A stretch of 23,503 bases of DNA from a virus. The translations under genes were made by a program, and so were the position numbers. Numbering within the stretch: position 1 is the first letter of the stretch; the number at the start of each line of letters is the position of its first letter. The notes below the pieces were generated by a model. The model was not told where the DNA came from. It saw only the letters and a program-made list of their open reading frames with translations, and made no database searches. The stretch covers positions 1 to 23,503 of IMG/VR virus record IMGVR_UViG_3300006916_005240. The stretch is one strand, 5' to 3'. This document shows, in pieces, positions 38 to 15,491 of the stretch.

Positions 38-325
38 ATGCGTAAAGTAATCGACAACAACTACACTAACACAATGCTCACAGCCTTCCAGTACGTACAT
101 GACGTAGTTAAATCTGGAGGCCTCGCCTATGAAACAAAGAGTGCTATCTGGGTTTACGAAGTAGAGCGTGATAGAGTAATGCTCATCGTCAAATCTCCTG
201 CTAACATGTCTAACAGGTTTATTGACTATGTCAAAGGAGATAAGCACTTTCAGAGTCACAAAGACAGGATTATCAAGCTTACTAACGCTAAGCCTGTGGT
301 GACTCGTTACGAAATTGCGTCTTAA
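38..325 (+). CDS. Hypothetical phage protein, 95 aa
   Basis: I do not recognise the family. The ATG at 38 follows an AAAGGA-type ribosome binding site (AAAGGA about 10 bases upstream), the same signal used by most genes in this block. The product is a small soluble-looking protein with mixed charge, no membrane segment and no obvious catalytic motif. It lies directly upstream of the tRNA in the rightward early/replication block, so an early accessory role is possible, but this is only positional inference. An antisense frame over the same bases has no such start signal. Confidence 0.7.
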   Translation: MRKVIDNNYTNTMLTAFQYVHDVVKSGGLAYETKSAIWVYEVERDRVMLIVKSPANMSNRFIDYVKGDKHFQSHKDRIIKLTNAKPVVTRYEIAS

Positions 326-346
326 AAAACACCCTTAAAGGGGGAA

Positions 347-423
347 GGGCGCATAGTCCAATTGGCAGAGACACTGGACTTAAAATCCACACAGTCTGGG
401 TTCGAATCCCAGTGCGCCTACCA
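347..423 (+). tRNA. tRNA with UAA anticodon (predicted Leu), short variable loop
   Basis: A complete cloverleaf can be folded by eye. The acceptor stem pairs GGGCGCA (347-353) with TGCGCCT (413-419), with one G-U pair. The D arm is GTC/GAC with GG in the loop. The anticodon stem is TGGA/TCCA with loop CTTAAAA, giving anticodon TAA at 381-383. The T arm is CTGGG-TTCGAAT-CCCAG (396-412). The discriminator is A (420) and the CCA end is encoded (421-423). UAA reads the leucine codon UUA (and perhaps UUG). The variable region is only about 5 nt (391-395), whereas bacterial leucine tRNAs normally carry a long variable arm. A C-C mismatch sits at the top of the anticodon stem. The gene is clear; the amino acid is inferred from the anticodon. 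Confidence 0.9.
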
Positions 424-440
424 ATTTGAAAGGATATACC

Positions 441-773
441 ATGCTACAAGTAACTCTTAATACAACTGACTATCCACACCTTGACACTGAAGAGGTCTTC
501 GGACTTCTTCCTAACTGGGTCAGGGAATATACCTTGGGTCTCACTGAGGAGAACACACTCAAAGATCACCTTGATACTGCTTATGGCTTTGGGCTGTATG
601 AGTTTGATGGAGAGATACTAGAAGACGGTACCTATCGTAGCCCATATGAAGAAGATGAGGACATCAAGTGGGTAGGTCAAATGAATACTCCCGATGGTAC
701 ACTATACTTCTACAAGTACTCTATTGTAGGTATTCCAACTCAATCAGGTTATTTCTTAACAAGGATGGATTGA
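441..773 (+). CDS. Conserved-looking hypothetical phage protein, 110 aa
   Basis: The ATG at 441 is chosen because GAAAGGA (428-434) lies 6 nt upstream; an in-frame TTG at 426 overlaps the binding site and is unlikely. The protein is acidic in its middle (a run of E/D around residues 68-78) and ends with a hydrophobic and aromatic stretch (YFYKYSIVGIP) followed by GYFLTRMD. I recall similar C-termini in small proteins of T7-like marine phages but can give no function. The stop overlaps the next start by one base (TGATG), which indicates translational coupling. Confidence 0.75.
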   Translation: MLQVTLNTTDYPHLDTEEVFGLLPNWVREYTLGLTEENTLKDHLDTAYGFGLYEFDGEILEDGTYRSPYEEDEDIKWVGQMNTPDGTLYFYKYSIVGIPTQSGYFLTRMD

Positions 774-9065: not shown

Positions 9066-9301
9066 AACATGATCCTAATCATGTTGCCTGGGTTCAATGT
9101 GAACCAGAAGACTTGGATGATGTTAAAGCAATCTTCCCTGTCGAAAAGTATGAGATTTTAGTCGGACTTAAGCCAACTTATGATCCGCTAACTTGTGATA
9201 CTCAAACCTTATACAACCCACCTAGCCCAATCTGGGGCGTAGATGTCAGGAAAAGAGACAATGCAGGACATAAAGACTTATCTCTTGGAGAGAATTCGTA
9301 G
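9041..9301 (+). CDS. Hypothetical protein, 86 aa
   Basis: ATG 9041 sits inside the end of the deaminase gene (25 nt overlap), with GAGAAAGG 12 nt and AAGG 2 nt upstream, so the start is uncertain. The end overlaps the RNA polymerase start by 59 nt. The sequence is acidic early (CEPEDLDDVKAIFP) and proline rich later (NPPSPIWG). No family is recognised. It fills the only gap between deaminase and RNA polymerase. Confidence 0.6.
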   Translation: MQVYFQSLEHDPNHVAWVQCEPEDLDDVKAIFPVEKYEILVGLKPTYDPLTCDTQTLYNPPSPIWGVDVRKRDNAGHKDLSLGENS

Positions 9302-11378
9302 CGAAGATATCGGAGTTAAACCACGGCGTAACCTTCAGCTTATGCGTATGATCGATACGGATGGCGTAGATATGCTTGACTTCCTTATTGAAGATATGAT
9401 TATCTTTGCTCGCAAGTATATTCAGCGTTGCTTTAAACGAAGTAAGGTTGAAGGAGAAACGCCTATTACTCAAGCATCAATGGCTATCGGTAAGTATATT
9501 GTTGAGTCATGGGATCCCACTAATGTAAACTTTAGAGATCATATTCGAGTAGGTGATCTTGTAATTGAAGGCTTTGTAATGTGTGAATACCTCACTATCA
9601 GTGTAGGACATATTAAAAGCCGTAAGCCAGTGACAATCCACGCAACAAAGAAATGGGGCGAGATGGAGATTGTTGCTGGCAAAACTGCTTGTATATCTGA
9701 AGACGCTATCCCGCCTATCACTAGTCTATTTCAAGATAATGGGCGCAGTGTAATTAAGACTTGGGATAAGTCTAAAGAAATGCTGTTTACAAAATACTTA
9801 AATAAGCCATTTGTAAAGGCTATCGACAAACTACAGTCCACTCGCTATCGGGTTAATGAAGGTGTTCACAAGGCTATCCTAGATAACTGGGACCACTTCA
9901 TTGGTAGCGAAGTATTTAAAGGAGACAACGATAAAGAGAACGATAAGCTCTATCAGCGTCAAGCCTCTAAGAACAGGGAGGTAAAAGAGATAATGGCTAC
10001 CGCAGCTAAATGGCTGCACAAGGAGTTTTATTTCTATATTGATGCAGACTATCGTGGTAGGCTTTATTATAGTGAGCCATTCTTTAACTTCCAAGGTTCA
10101 GATATGGCCCGTGGTCAACTGTTGTTTGCAGAAGGTCGTTTGTTCGATCAACAAGCAAGCTTCTGGTTGGCTGTGCATACGGCTTGTTGCTATAATCAGT
10201 CGTATACTATTGACGAGATCCCTGAATGGGTGACTGCTGATTATCGTAGCATACTTGAGTCAGAAGGTCTTGATACTATCTCTGTAGATAAAATGACGCT
10301 TGAAGACAGAGCAATGTGGACTCAGCAGAACATTGATACTATCGTTGAAGCAGGTGAGATGGGTTTCTTCTTTGCAGAAGCTGAGAAAGAAATCTCTTTT
10401 CTTGCTTGCTGTATTGAGTGGTACAACTATTCTACTGCGGAAGGCGACTTCTATACTCACCTACCTATCCCTATTGATGGTGCTAATAATGGTTGGCAAC
10501 ATCTAGGTGCTATGTCTAAGGACGAAAAGACAGGTGAGTTAGTAGGGCTTGTGCCTGTGAATATTCAGAATGACTTCTATGTTCAAATCGCCAAGCGTCT
10601 TACTGAGCGTATGCCAGAATGGTTTGAAGAGCGCAATATACCTATGAAGCATATTCGAAAAGGTATTGCTAAGCGTGCTGCTATGACTCGTGCGTATAGC
10701 TGTGGACAAAAGAAGATGTCGGAGTCAATGTTCTCTGATTGCTATCAGTATGGATACACTGATGAGTATAACATTTCTGAGTACGATTGTATTGATCTCA
10801 GCGGTCAAATCATTAAGGCGATTGAAGAGGTCTGTCCAGGGCCACTCACTACTATGAAGTATCTTCAGAGACTTGCAGATCAAGAGATCAATAATTGGAT
10901 GGGTATGTATGGTACTGATCGAGGGCAAGGTATCGAGTGGATTACTCCATCAGGCTTTCCTGTTATCTATGAGTGTTATCGTACTCGTCCTGCTAAAGTA
11001 GATTGTTACGGCTTCAATACCCCTCATGGCGAGATACGCTTTAAGCATGTCATCAGAGAAAAGACAGACATTCCTGATCGGCGTGGATTTATGTGTGGTA
11101 TCAGCCCTAACTTTGTTCATAGCATGGATGCATCTCACATGGCTCTTGTAATTGCTAATTGGGATGATGACTTTGGTGCTGTGCATGATTCATTCAGTAG
11201 TTATGCTACTCGTACTGAAGACCTTATGACAATTACTCGTGAGAAGTTTGTTGAGATGTACGACAAAGAAAACTTTTACGGAACAATTGAGTTTGGTAAA
11301 GGCTTTAATGGAAAACAACCAACAATAGGTAGTCTCGATATTACAGGAGTAAACAAGTCTAACTATTTCTTCTGCTAA
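9243..11378 (+). CDS. T7-type single-subunit RNA polymerase, 711 aa
   Basis: All catalytic motifs of the T7 family are present: DADYRGRLYY (267-276, T/DxxGR element), motif A PIDGANNGWQH with Asp412, motif B IAKRAAMTRAYS with Lys477 and Tyr485, and motif C PNFVHSMDASH then AVHDSF with Asp649. A specificity-loop-sized region precedes motif C. The C-terminus YFFC is aromatic like T7's FAFA. The N-terminal part is about 150 residues shorter than in T7 RNA polymerase (883 aa), so promoter recognition or melting may differ; total size resembles the two subunits of N4 RNAPII joined. Ser486 replaces the T7 Gly640. Start 9243 is the longest; ATG 9261 is a good alternative with AGGA upstream. It is the last gene before the terminator and likely transcribes middle or late genes. 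Confidence 0.95.
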   Translation: MSGKETMQDIKTYLLERIRSEDIGVKPRRNLQLMRMIDTDGVDMLDFLIEDMIIFARKYIQRCFKRSKVEGETPITQASMAIGKYIVESWDPTNVNFRDHIRVGDLVIEGFVMCEYLTISVGHIKSRKPVTIHATKKWGEMEIVAGKTACISEDAIPPITSLFQDNGRSVIKTWDKSKEMLFTKYLNKPFVKAIDKLQSTRYRVNEGVHKAILDNWDHFIGSEVFKGDNDKENDKLYQRQASKNREVKEIMATAAKWLHKEFYFYIDADYRGRLYYSEPFFNFQGSDMARGQLLFAEGRLFDQQASFWLAVHTACCYNQSYTIDEIPEWVTADYRSILESEGLDTISVDKMTLEDRAMWTQQNIDTIVEAGEMGFFFAEAEKEISFLACCIEWYNYSTAEGDFYTHLPIPIDGANNGWQHLGAMSKDEKTGELVGLVPVNIQNDFYVQIAKRLTERMPEWFEERNIPMKHIRKGIAKRAAMTRAYSCGQKKMSESMFSDCYQYGYTDEYNISEYDCIDLSGQIIKAIEEVCPGPLTTMKYLQRLADQEINNWMGMYGTDRGQGIEWITPSGFPVIYECYRTRPAKVDCYGFNTPHGEIRFKHVIREKTDIPDRRGFMCGISPNFVHSMDASHMALVIANWDDDFGAVHDSFSSYATRTEDLMTITREKFVEMYDKENFYGTIEFGKGFNGKQPTIGSLDITGVNKSNYFFC

Positions 11379-11693: not shown

Positions 11694-14600
11694 TTAGTTT
11701 AATTGATATGCAATCTTAGCTAGTTGACTTTCAATACTATCATATCCAAAAGAATCCTGAGTTAAGCTGGCCATTCTTTCTTTATCTAATAGCACTGCGT
11801 TTTCATTTACTTTATAAAAGAATATAAGAAAATTAATTAACGCTTTAATTTCTTTACCAGTTAGCATTGCACCGTCTGCATCCCAATTCTTAAGAAGATT
11901 ACTTAATCTTTGGATTGCTTCCGCTTTTTTAGGATGACGACCTGGCTTTCTAAATATAGTAAACAATTGAGCAAGCTCAGGCGATACTTCTTCACGCTCG
12001 GCGTTAAAAAGTTTAGTATTAATATCTTTTAATGTTGCATGTAATGCTCTAAACTTAGGGTTATTATCGCTAACCATAAATCGTTCATCATCTGCCAGCC
12101 TTGCTTCAAAGTTAGCTTTGGCTTCTAGCAAAGGAATAATTGCAGATTTAATTGGACTATATCCTTTTTCAGTAGGTCCAATTAATTCTTTAAAAATTCT
12201 ATTATAAGCCGAATGATACTCGCCTACAGATCTTGCATCAGTAATAAGCGAATCATGGATATCTACAAAGAATAACGGATTCTTACGGTTCTTATTAACA
12301 TAGTTAATTGTCTTAGCCATTACTGCACCATCAATTGACTGAATAAACAATACAGGTAATTGATTAATTGTTTCTTGTCCAAATGCAGATGGTTGACCCT
12401 TAACTAGTTTACCAATTTCCATATCATAAATAAGAGGAATCTTTGAAGTCCTTTTAGTTCCTGATGGTTGAGTTGCTTTAACTGGACGCTCCATCACTGT
12501 GCCATCGCCTAACGGCACTTGAACTACTTCACCTGTTTCGTATACTTCTCGAGATCCATAAAAAGACTTTTTACCTGTTGGAGTAATAAAATAAGGTGTT
12601 TCACCCATTGCAGCAAATATTCTTGCTTGATCTTTAAAGTGTGATTGATAATCAAGAACAAGAACTTGTTGAAGAGTTGCAGCTAAGACTAGGTTTAAAT
12701 CTGAAATTGCATCTCTGTCAGTATAAGTAGGAATATCTACTTTAATACTTTCAATTGCTTCTGAAAAACGAGAACCAAATGTAGGATGACCTAATAGTGC
12801 CATAACTGTTTCATGTTGAAATCCAATATATGAACCATAAGAGGTCTCCATAAGTGGCGCACGACTAACTGCTTTAGCAAAATCTTTTGCGTTATCAGGA
12901 TCTTGCATAAACGAAGTAAACAATCCTTCGTAAGCTGACTTCTTATCTGCATTTTTAAATATAGAATTAATAGAGGGAATTAAGTGAGTCATATAGTAAT
13001 CACGAATATCGCCTTCATTAATAATATTTGTTTCATCTTCATAGATAAGCCCAACTCGTTTAACCATGTTTTCAATTCCGTAAAGCAAACCATAAATAGC
13101 CATACCACTTTGTTTACCATCGTGTTTAGCTGTTGCTTTTGCCTGGAAAATATAATCATTCTTACGAGTCTTTTGAACAGGTGCAAAGAAAGTTTCTTGT
13201 TCAGCCATAATATCTTTTTCGAGTATTTGGATCTGATCTAGATCTTGCATTTCTTGTGCATCTTGCATCATTGCTTGTAACTGCTGCATACGTACACTAG
13301 TTAATTGACCCTCTGCGGTCAGAGGTACAATAGGAATTAACTCAAGCTCCGCTTTATTTGGATTGATTGTATCTGCGTAATTAGCAAGGTCAATGTACGC
13401 TTGTGACTTAAGACCCCAATCATCTTTATCTGAATAAAGCTTTTGTAAGTCAGCTGGTAACGCCTCAAACAATTCTCTAAATTTAATAGGATCTAGCGTT
13501 TGGGAAAGCTTTCGAATAAGTTTACCTTTAGCAACTAACTCTGAAAACCTTTTACTTTCAGGATTAAAGATTACTTCTTCAGCTAACTTTAGAGTAGCAT
13601 TAAAACCCATGTCTTCTGCACGAGTTGTATTAGGATTTACCGATTGAAAGTCTTCTTTGTTAAGCAACGCTCGTCCAATAATATATTTAAAGTTACGCAT
13701 AATTTCTGCGTCTGGTTGACGAGAATCAATAAAGATTGGATTAGCACTGATAAGCATGTTTCGAACAGCCTTACTGTTCTGAGGATCAAATGCAGAGTTC
13801 CTAAAATGAAAACGGTTATTTGCTGACGCATAAAAACGTTTCATATAAAAAGACCTATCTTTAAACTGGTCTGCTACCATAAGGTTTTTAATACGAAGTC
13901 TTGCTTGCATTGCAATAATTAAATCAGCTTGTTGTGCGGCATCTGCTTCAGTAACACCTTCACGCATAATTGCAGAACGATAATATTTATCCCAATCATT
14001 TTCAGAAATGCCTAACAGAGTAGCGGTTGGGTGTGTCGAACAAAACTTAGTTGGATGCTGATCAATAAAAGCTCTTCGACTAAGAACTACCCTTCTATTT
14101 TTAATATTGTATCTAATGTTAGCATGAACAATATTAGACAAGGTATTTAAACCATTGTCGTTAACTCGCATTGCTGTGCGCCCCATATGATTAAGCGCAT
14201 CGAGTTCTTCGTTACTATCTGATCGTTTGCTTTTAACAGATACATTGCCTGTTTGTTTAAATCCTCTATCTCGCTCTAAACCAAAACCAACGCCATTAGT
14301 TAATGGTGTTAAAGACGGTAAGATAGATCTTTCTGGAAACACATCGTCTAGGACTTCTCGTACACCGTCAAAAAAGGAAATTGCATCCTCTGTAAAGTCA
14401 TAGAAGGTATTCCCTTCGTGTGTAACTTCTTTAATAAACCCTAATTGATTCATTGCCATATAAGACAATCCATCTAAAGCCTCTAAAGATTTTGCATCTG
14501 CACGATCACCTTCACCACCAAATAAAACAGTTGCTGCTCCAACTTGTCCTTGATTTTGTAAAGCACGATTAAGAATACCTTTTCCAAAACGAGACCGTTC

Positions 14601-15491
14601 AAACAATGGATTAATACGCATTCCTGCTTTAGGGCGAGTAATTGGATTTCCAGTTTCTACTTCTTGGAAATAATCTAAAACACTATCTTCTGACATATAG
14701 GAATCTTCAGGATCTAAGCCTTCCATTGTCATTTGATCGCGTCTATTTAATTCGTCTAAAACATTTTCAGCAAATTGTAATGCTAGTACATTACCAAACT
14801 TAAGGCTGACCGTTCCATCTGCATTAAGCAAACCCCCTCGCTGGAGATAGTCCTGTAACTTAGTCATATCTGGATCTGAAGAAGTAAAAGCAGGGGTACC
14901 CACATCACTGATAGCACCAGTAAACGCACGACCAAGATTAACTAACTTGTTAACCGCCCCTGCACTTGCAGTAACAGGTAAGTTAACGCTCTGCATTTCT
15001 GATTTGAACTGATCAATGCTTTGATATTGAAAAGGAATATCTGCGGTAGTTTGAATACCAGACAACTCTTTTGCTTCGTCTAGTAATGAACGTGCTTGTT
15101 GTTCAGTAGGCGAAAACGGACGCCCCTGCTCATCAAACATTTGGGTGCGCATTAGTTCTTTAATTAAAGGATCATCAGACTGTTCTGCTAACATACGTTG
15201 CGAAAGCTCTTGCTCACGACTAACAGGTTGCTGTGGCTGGCCTAACATCTGATCAGCAACCATCTGTGCTTTAGGCGATAAGTCTGCTGTCTCATCTCTT
15301 ACTGGTGTTGCTACACCAATTTGTTCTTCTGCTAACCTTGCAGCTGGCATTTCAAGAAGCGTATTCCGTTTTGCTTCTGCGGCAACAAAATCAGGATCAG
15401 TCGTTAATGCTTCTTCTCTTGTTTGCCTATTAATTTTTTCCTGATTTCTTTTTATATCAGATAACGCTTGAGTCGTTTTAAAACTCGACAT
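11694..15491 (-). CDS. Putative virion RNA polymerase (N4/T7 single-subunit fold), 1265 aa
   Basis: A late-strand giant protein that carries the single-subunit RNA polymerase signature. An arginine element NNRFHFRNSAFDPQ (558-571) matches T7 RGRVY...FNPQ. Motif A is KHDGKQSG with Asp791 (T7 FDGSCSG). Motif B is KAVSRAPLMETSYGS (873-887) with Tyr885-Gly886. Motif C is LFIQSIDG (1048-1055), then VDIHDSL with Asp1080. Spacings A-B (about 86 to the Arg) and B-C (about 203) are close to T7's 94 and 181. About 540 residues precede the core, the first 150 Gln/Glu-rich and probably disordered; about 185 follow motif C. It lies beside transglycosylase and internal proteins, as the virion polymerase does in N4, so packaging and injection are inferred. 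It has one cysteine. AGGAGG precedes the ATG. A catalytically dead internal protein is the alternative. Confidence 0.8.
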   Translation of the reverse strand: MSSFKTTQALSDIKRNQEKINRQTREEALTTDPDFVAAEAKRNTLLEMPAARLAEEQIGVATPVRDETADLSPKAQMVADQMLGQPQQPVSREQELSQRMLAEQSDDPLIKELMRTQMFDEQGRPFSPTEQQARSLLDEAKELSGIQTTADIPFQYQSIDQFKSEMQSVNLPVTASAGAVNKLVNLGRAFTGAISDVGTPAFTSSDPDMTKLQDYLQRGGLLNADGTVSLKFGNVLALQFAENVLDELNRRDQMTMEGLDPEDSYMSEDSVLDYFQEVETGNPITRPKAGMRINPLFERSRFGKGILNRALQNQGQVGAATVLFGGEGDRADAKSLEALDGLSYMAMNQLGFIKEVTHEGNTFYDFTEDAISFFDGVREVLDDVFPERSILPSLTPLTNGVGFGLERDRGFKQTGNVSVKSKRSDSNEELDALNHMGRTAMRVNDNGLNTLSNIVHANIRYNIKNRRVVLSRRAFIDQHPTKFCSTHPTATLLGISENDWDKYYRSAIMREGVTEADAAQQADLIIAMQARLRIKNLMVADQFKDRSFYMKRFYASANNRFHFRNSAFDPQNSKAVRNMLISANPIFIDSRQPDAEIMRNFKYIIGRALLNKEDFQSVNPNTTRAEDMGFNATLKLAEEVIFNPESKRFSELVAKGKLIRKLSQTLDPIKFRELFEALPADLQKLYSDKDDWGLKSQAYIDLANYADTINPNKAELELIPIVPLTAEGQLTSVRMQQLQAMMQDAQEMQDLDQIQILEKDIMAEQETFFAPVQKTRKNDYIFQAKATAKHDGKQSGMAIYGLLYGIENMVKRVGLIYEDETNIINEGDIRDYYMTHLIPSINSIFKNADKKSAYEGLFTSFMQDPDNAKDFAKAVSRAPLMETSYGSYIGFQHETVMALLGHPTFGSRFSEAIESIKVDIPTYTDRDAISDLNLVLAATLQQVLVLDYQSHFKDQARIFAAMGETPYFITPTGKKSFYGSREVYETGEVVQVPLGDGTVMERPVKATQPSGTKRTSKIPLIYDMEIGKLVKGQPSAFGQETINQLPVLFIQSIDGAVMAKTINYVNKNRKNPLFFVDIHDSLITDARSVGEYHSAYNRIFKELIGPTEKGYSPIKSAIIPLLEAKANFEARLADDERFMVSDNNPKFRALHATLKDINTKLFNAEREEVSPELAQLFTIFRKPGRHPKKAEAIQRLSNLLKNWDADGAMLTGKEIKALINFLIFFYKVNENAVLLDKERMASLTQDSFGYDSIESQLAKIAYQLN

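Follow-up and report, generated by a model that had tools for sequence, protein, structure and literature searches.

The window analysed here (the whole stretch of DNA, 23,503 bases, which is the entire virus record) comes from a marine phage and carries one tRNA gene. This gene very probably codes for a functional phage tRNA that is charged with leucine by the host LeuRS, reads UUA as well as UUG, is one of a class I family with many members, widespread in phages, and supplements the decoding of UUA, above all in the late virion genes. According to this model, the tRNA would be transcribed along with early or middle genes and matured at its encoded CCA end, the host LeuRS would charge it via A73 and the D/T corner, and the charged tRNA would be used at UUA codons, which peak in the virion genes, and at UUG codons, which a UAA anticodon also decodes via wobble. 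The family as a whole would have kept the leucine core, i.e., a D stem of 3 bp, unpaired positions 13/22, A15-U48, G18G19, A20a and A73, with a short variable loop replacing the long arm.

Structure and leucine determinants of the tRNA

ARAGORN calls tRNA-Leu(taa) as the sole tRNA of the window, and the covariance model of Rfam places it in the tRNA family (RF00005) with a score far above chance (gathering threshold 29 bits, E = 3.1e-10); both programs yield a cloverleaf. The coordinates of the gene, its parts and its two neighbours are collected in the table.

Features in and around the tRNA gene of the window
Feature	Position	Strand	Basis or remark
Upstream neighbour ORF, 95 aa, no family match	38..325	+	homologues in 19/63 loci searched
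Class I tRNA-Leu(UAA) gene, encoded CCA	347..423	+	ARAGORN; Rfam RF00005, 57.5 bits
A15 of the A15-U48 Levitt pair	361..361	+	position parse
D-loop G18 G19 C20 A20a	364..367	+	position parse
Anticodon UAA, T381-A383	381..383	+	ARAGORN and position reading; UUA codon read
Variable loop ACAGU, 5 nt, U48 = 395	391..395	+	position parse
Discriminator A73 = A420	420..420	+	position parse
Downstream neighbour ORF, 110 aa, no family match	441..773	+	adjacent to the upstream neighbour in L273, no tRNA between

The acceptor stem (GGGCGCA/UGCGCCU) contains a G1.U72 wobble, which was ruled out as a peculiarity of this tRNA, as it is present in 80 of 179 viral leucine tRNAs. U8, A14, A15, G18G19, C20, A20a and a T arm are found at the standard positions, the D stem comprises 3 bp with C13 and A22 unpaired, the anticodon loop reads CUUAAAA, and the CCA end is encoded at 421-423. 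With its 5 nt the variable region falls short of the variable arm of bacterial class II tRNA-Leu (10 nt or more), and the UAA anticodon combined with a short variable loop makes the gene a class I tRNA-Leu(UAA); its loop, ACAGT, is the commonest one in the viral class I Leu(TAA) set with 5-nt loops (27 of 117). Every point of the first-pass annotation that could be compared with ARAGORN, Rfam and the position parse proved correct, namely the anticodon TAA, the discriminator A, the variable region of about 5 nt and the mismatch at 27-43 (C374 x C390, i.e., C27 x C43). Neither of the two findings that it had named as fatal to this reading was made, in that the anticodon is indeed UAA and a thermodynamic refold of the unmodified strand gives no long variable arm. 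The same refold (-24.5 kcal/mol; z = -2.71, with 6 of 200 shuffles equal or better) is not a cloverleaf, the D-arm strand pairing with the anticodon-stem strand.

With respect to leucine identity, it had been presumed that the long arm sets it in bacteria. This was overstated: according to a review (PMC9976931, section 12, on leucine), in E. coli A73 is crucial and A15-U48, G18G19 and A20a are essential, the anticodon and the long arm are not, variants of tRNA-Leu without the long arm are active, and LeuRS can dispense with that arm. A15-U48, G18G19, A20a and A73 are all present in the window tRNA, and its unpaired positions 13/22 correspond to a D arm of the leucine type. Of the options raised for its charging, leucylation in spite of the unusual shape is well supported, and the tRNA most likely accepts leucine.

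These five features (A15-U48, G18G19, A20a, A73 and 13/22 unpaired) were scored in larger collections. The first collection comprised 1,092 distinct parsed sequences of viruses and genomes from 1,351 ARAGORN calls, the remainder being duplicates or unparsed. On its viral side, the full set of five is present in 59/84 class I Leu(TAA), 51/59 other class I Leu and 28/33 class II Leu tRNAs; among viral class I tRNAs of isotypes other than Leu, Ser and Tyr they are found in 7 of 449 (2 Ala, 2 Lys, 1 Met, 1 Pro and 1 Arg). A second viral set with 5-nt loops, in which 8 sequences were left unparsed and which may share some sequences with the first, gave 86/117 for class I Leu(TAA), 21/23 for other class I Leu, 8/9 for class II Leu and 7/386 for class I tRNAs of other isotypes, and the corresponding numbers for the genome sequences of the first collection are 63/75 for class I Leu(TAA) and 3/218 for class I tRNAs of other isotypes. 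Except for the 13 BLAST-derived loci described below, the way the sequences were collected does not impose this agreement, since the pattern scans fix the anticodon loop and the T arm but neither the D arm nor position 73.

Distribution in viruses and bacteria

A blastn search with the 77 bases of the gene matches 763 phage records, and in 379 of these the match spans 80% or more of the gene. In 13 of these loci (L002-L014) ARAGORN finds 12 leucine tRNAs (6 taa, 5 tag and 1 caa), which at a length of 75-79 nt are too short to include a long arm, and one tRNA-Trp; the tRNA of L013 adjoins an integrase gene and may be an attachment site. Pattern scans of IMG/VR returned at least 120 loci with 5-nt loops, all 120 of those listed being Leu(taa) according to ARAGORN, and at least 120 loci with 6-nt loops, of which those listed comprise 89 Leu(taa) and 31 without a tRNA call. 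The 6-nt pattern likewise has at least 120 matches in bacterial genomes (80 Leu(taa), 35 without a tRNA call and 5 others among those listed), these numbers confirming the patterns rather than giving frequencies. Titles are available for 80 of the 120 listed matches, and the 52 confirmed loci among these 80 belong to Actinomycetota (38), Nostoc-type cyanobacteria (11) and other groups (3), the phylum labels being based on the titles and on general knowledge.

In evenly drawn genomes, a pattern with loops of 4-6 nt has raw matches in 68 of 396 genomes from the phylum of Janibacter (Actinomycetota) and matches in 2 of 398 from that of Alteromonas (Pseudomonadota). Neither of the latter two is called as tRNA-Leu, the Alteromonas match (L155) being reported by ARAGORN as tRNA-???(aaaa) and the other showing no cloverleaf by eye. 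Being narrow, the 4-6 nt pattern does not pick up members whose anticodon loop or T arm has other letters.

Eight actinobacterial genomes chosen for their class I match were searched with a broad pattern for any UAA tRNA. Among the 13 matches ARAGORN calls a UAA tRNA at nine, all of them with loops of 5-6 nt and at least one per genome, and none at the other four. A long-armed UAA tRNA was found in none of the eight, with the proviso that the pattern would miss a divergent T loop and that the assemblies may be incomplete; that it can detect class II genes is indicated by its match to a sequence with long-arm spacing in Alteromonas. These bacteria would therefore depend on the class I form for UUA, which they presumably read as leucine. 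Their class I tRNA-Leu(UAA) resembles the window tRNA in the kind of D arm, in the core and in having a loop of 5-6 nt, but it is a cellular gene and differs in the acceptor stem, which is GCCCCCG in 6 of 9.

The closest described counterpart from a phage is tRNAL2 (tRNA-Leu, UUA) of the T5-like Salmonella phage 5 (AJ604531), which, judged by eye, shares with the window tRNA the UAA anticodon, the 5-nt loop, A15, U48, G18G19, A20a, A73, G1.U72 and the CCA end, and which is 77.1% identical to it over query bases 8-77. The record gives 'codon recognized: UUA' and states that with a changed anticodon tRNAL2 is an 'effective amber suppressor'. It differs in its setting: the Salmonella phage, one of the Demerecviridae, has tRNAL2 in a region of tRNA genes, whereas the window tRNA is the only one in a genome that encodes a T7-type RNA polymerase. 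For mycobacteria, a short-loop tRNA-Leu(TAG) encoded in a tRNA cluster is already in print, as far as the available part of PMC6582537 goes; it has the class I body and a leucine anticodon in common with the window tRNA but differs in its anticodon, UAG, and in belonging to a bacterial tRNA cluster. None of the papers among the literature matches listed deals with class I tRNA-Leu(UAA) from phages, although older work on T5 may describe it, and none presents the class I tRNA as what reads UUA in Actinomycetota or reports a class difference between related phages; the available parts of PMC7609411, PMC5733544 and PMC4810235 do not describe class I tRNA-Leu(UAA) either. Though unusual by the textbook, the window tRNA is thus a typical representative of a class that is widespread and in part already described.

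Related phages, genomic setting and codon demand

The plus strand of the window includes genes for a gp2.5-like single-strand binding protein, a DNA polymerase, a primase/helicase and a T7-type RNA polymerase, and the minus strand those for a virion structural protein and for a protein with a transglycosylase domain. The best named relatives of the DNA polymerase are those of Pelagibacter phage Kolga (37.8%) and Roseobacter phage CRP-7 (36.9%); in the case of the RNA polymerase, CRP-7 (33.6%) is followed, among the matches listed, by phages of other Pseudomonadota (at most 28%). From these Pelagibacter and Roseobacter phage relatives we infer an alphaproteobacterial host.

Three further observations concern the gene content and the surroundings of the tRNA. 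In the late protein of 1265 aa (11694-15491, minus strand), residues 1045-1095 weakly match single-subunit RNA polymerase (phrog_414, 23.9 bits; Pfam RNA_pol 12.2 bits, which is below the cut-off) around VDIHDSLITDA, which resembles polymerase motif C. The protein is a possible divergent virion RNA polymerase, in addition to the T7-type enzyme encoded at 9243-11378. At 2278-2715 on the plus strand a nucleoside 2-deoxyribosyltransferase-like protein is encoded (PF05014, 35.2 bits, cut-off 28.8), possibly acting in nucleotide metabolism. Just upstream of the tRNA, a terminator-like inverted repeat with a T run (329-352, minus strand) opposes the direction of the genes; it is one of three such sites in positions 1-1000, where 0.6 would be expected.

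A scan with the DNA polymerase led to 62 related loci, many of them short fragments, so that 'without tRNA' applies to the stretch covered (for CRP-7, which carries a tRNA-Arg, 50,000 of 58,106 bases). A tRNA is found in three, L256, L257 and L272. The first is nearly the same phage (30 mismatches in 12,000 bases compared) with an identical tRNA. In L257, whose polymerase is 92% identical, the class I tRNA has two substitutions, one at D-loop position 17 and one at position 43, where the 27-43 pair becomes C x U. The upstream ORF of L257 reads into the tRNA (974-1050) and ends at a TAG formed by tRNA bases 8-10; that of the window stops 21 bases short of the tRNA. L272 (polymerase 80%) carries instead a class II tRNA-Leu(UAA), which shares with the window tRNA the anticodon, the neighbourhood and, letter for letter, the acceptor arm including G1.U72, but which has a long variable arm and a different D stem. 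It precedes the homologue of the upstream neighbour ORF, with another short ORF in between, whereas the window tRNA follows that ORF.

Homologues of the upstream neighbour ORF occur in 19 loci, of which only three have a tRNA, and in L273 the two ORFs that flank the tRNA in the window are adjacent without it. The acceptor arm is joined to a Leu-like body in four viral contigs, one of which (L348) has a class II tRNA and belongs to a phage with a single protein match to the window (39% over 95 residues). The simplest reading is that of a mobile tRNA gene whose body class was changed by recombination, the anticodon and acceptor arm being kept; a separate acquisition of two tRNAs by related phages is the less simple one.

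A leucine tRNA with a body unlike that of the host might also be kept mainly because it evades a host nuclease or toxin attacking the long-armed tRNA-Leu(UAA), in which case the different body would be the point of the gene. Phage tRNAs that evade tRNA-targeting defence have been described (available parts of PMC10264068 and PMC11555353), and given the two pattern matches in 398 Pseudomonadota genomes mentioned above, neither of them a tRNA-Leu, a host from this phylum would have a tRNA unlike the phage one. However, the defence system and the cleavage are hypothetical and the host is deduced from phage relatives; moreover, the available part of PMC10264068 names tRNA-Leu(tta) among the known RelE targets with reported avoidance, and its title refers to changes in the anticodon loop, not to body shape. 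Evasion as the main role is putative and, in our judgement, unlikely.

The preferred reading, in which the tRNA supplements UUA decoding, can be viewed against the use of leucine codons. In the late genes TTA is the commonest leucine codon, with 130 of 304 (43%), compared to 28 of 256 in the plus-strand genes (ORF 895-1100, read in a frame with an internal stop, is not part of this count); T-ending codons are likewise more frequent in the late genes, along with a general bias of T over C. Such usage would suggest a demand for the tRNA, but late-strand ORFs, taken as any reverse-strand open stretch of at least 400 codons and not as curated genes, are richer in TTA than the replication genes in all 27 loci compared, 25 of which are without a tRNA-Leu in the stretch covered. 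In the five replication genes the share of TTA among leucine codons is 0.073 in the window, 0.080 in L256, 0.120 in L257 and 0.217 in L272, compared to 0.123-0.398 in 60 loci without a tRNA-Leu. A regression of TTA on base composition (52 loci, r2 = 0.61) places the window at z = -3.1, L256 at -2.9, L257 at -3.4 and L272 at -0.9, with one of the 52 other loci at -3.2. Because the window, L256 and L257 are one lineage, their TTA-poor replication genes count as one event, and the low TTA of the tRNA-bearing lineage is only suggestive. Simple codon compensation was rejected as an explanation, as the late enrichment of TTA is also seen without a tRNA-Leu and the tRNA-bearing lineage is poor in TTA in its replication genes.

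The same usage could be taken as a stage switch, in which the replication genes of this lineage avoid UUA to a greater degree than those of all 60 relatives examined that lack a tRNA-Leu and the late genes use it for 43% of their leucines, so that virion synthesis would depend on the phage tRNA, the class I body at the same time making it insensitive to host effectors directed at the long-armed tRNA-Leu(UAA). We regard this combination as rather improbable.

Integrity of the tRNA and the meaning of UUA

The first-pass annotation had also considered a decoy, and the gene might in this sense be degraded or nonfunctional, e.g., a recombination relic or a bait for a tRNA nuclease. The C27 x C43 mismatch, which is C x U in L257, would fit such a role, as would the unmodified fold, which is not a cloverleaf, and the sporadic presence of the gene among relatives. 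Yet all loops, the D/T tertiary residues and the CCA end are intact, neither of the two substitutions in L257 affects a formed stem pair, positions 27-43 are also unpaired in 9 of 117 and 18 of 83 viral class I Leu(TAA) of the two sets, and the same architecture is chromosomal in Actinomycetota. With little beyond the 27-43 mismatch in its favour, a decoy or relic is very unlikely.

If the tRNA were charged with another amino acid, as had also been proposed, UUA would be recoded wholly or ambiguously in the phage proteins. Site by site, the proteins of the window were compared with those of relatives without the class I tRNA (L258-L317 and CRP-7, with L272 and its class II tRNA among them), alignments above 92% identity being excluded and ORF 895-1100 being retained as a query. 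In the plus-strand genes, leucine is the majority residue of the relatives at 22 of 28 TTA sites, compared to 77/96 for CTT, 39/46 for CTA, 30/37 for CTC, 19/23 for CTG and 26/26 for TTG. Counted by aligned residues, TTA has a somewhat smaller share of leucine (0.645 of 964 cells) than the other leucine codons (0.722-0.838), with no single substitute taking its place (Ile 0.085, Val 0.071).

The late genes, represented by 58 gene-locus pairs of which 28 stem from one short protein, are weakly informative, since leucine is the majority residue at only 37 of 111 TTA sites and the values for other leucine codons are similarly low (CTT 30/79, CTA 6/28, TTG 12/29, CTG 2/10). By cells, leucine accounts for 0.30 of 740 at TTA, where it is still the commonest residue, 0.31 of 213 at CTA, 0.39 of 583 at CTT, 0.40 of 240 at TTG and 0.15 of 73 at CTG. 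Scans with two late proteins found one relative, which is identical, for that of 748 aa, and eight for that of 1609 aa, one identical and seven at 29-38%.

At the UUA sites of conserved proteins no one residue other than leucine is thus favoured, the late genes contributing little to this result. Recoding can point to the class I body without a long arm, to the lower frequency of leucine at TTA than at most other leucine codons in the plus-strand genes, and to the lower late-gene value for TTA than for CTT and TTG; it is opposed by the resemblance of TTA to CTT sites in majority residue, by late-gene values for CTA and CTG that are similar or lower, by A73, A15-U48, A20a and a leucine-type D arm, and by the class I form being the sole UAA tRNA type found in the eight bacterial genomes. 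For the plus-strand genes recoding was accordingly rejected on the majority residues, despite the lower frequency of leucine by aligned cells, and it is contradicted there and unsupported both in the late genes and by the identity elements, which leaves it highly improbable.

By far the most probable reading remains that of a leucine tRNA which would supplement the decoding of UUA and whose body lacks the long arm. As related phages carry class I and class II versions with one shared acceptor arm, they provide a natural test of the role of the long arm. The presence of this arm is often used as a rule to judge tRNA calls, but it seems to be dispensable in nature as it is in E. coli mutants.
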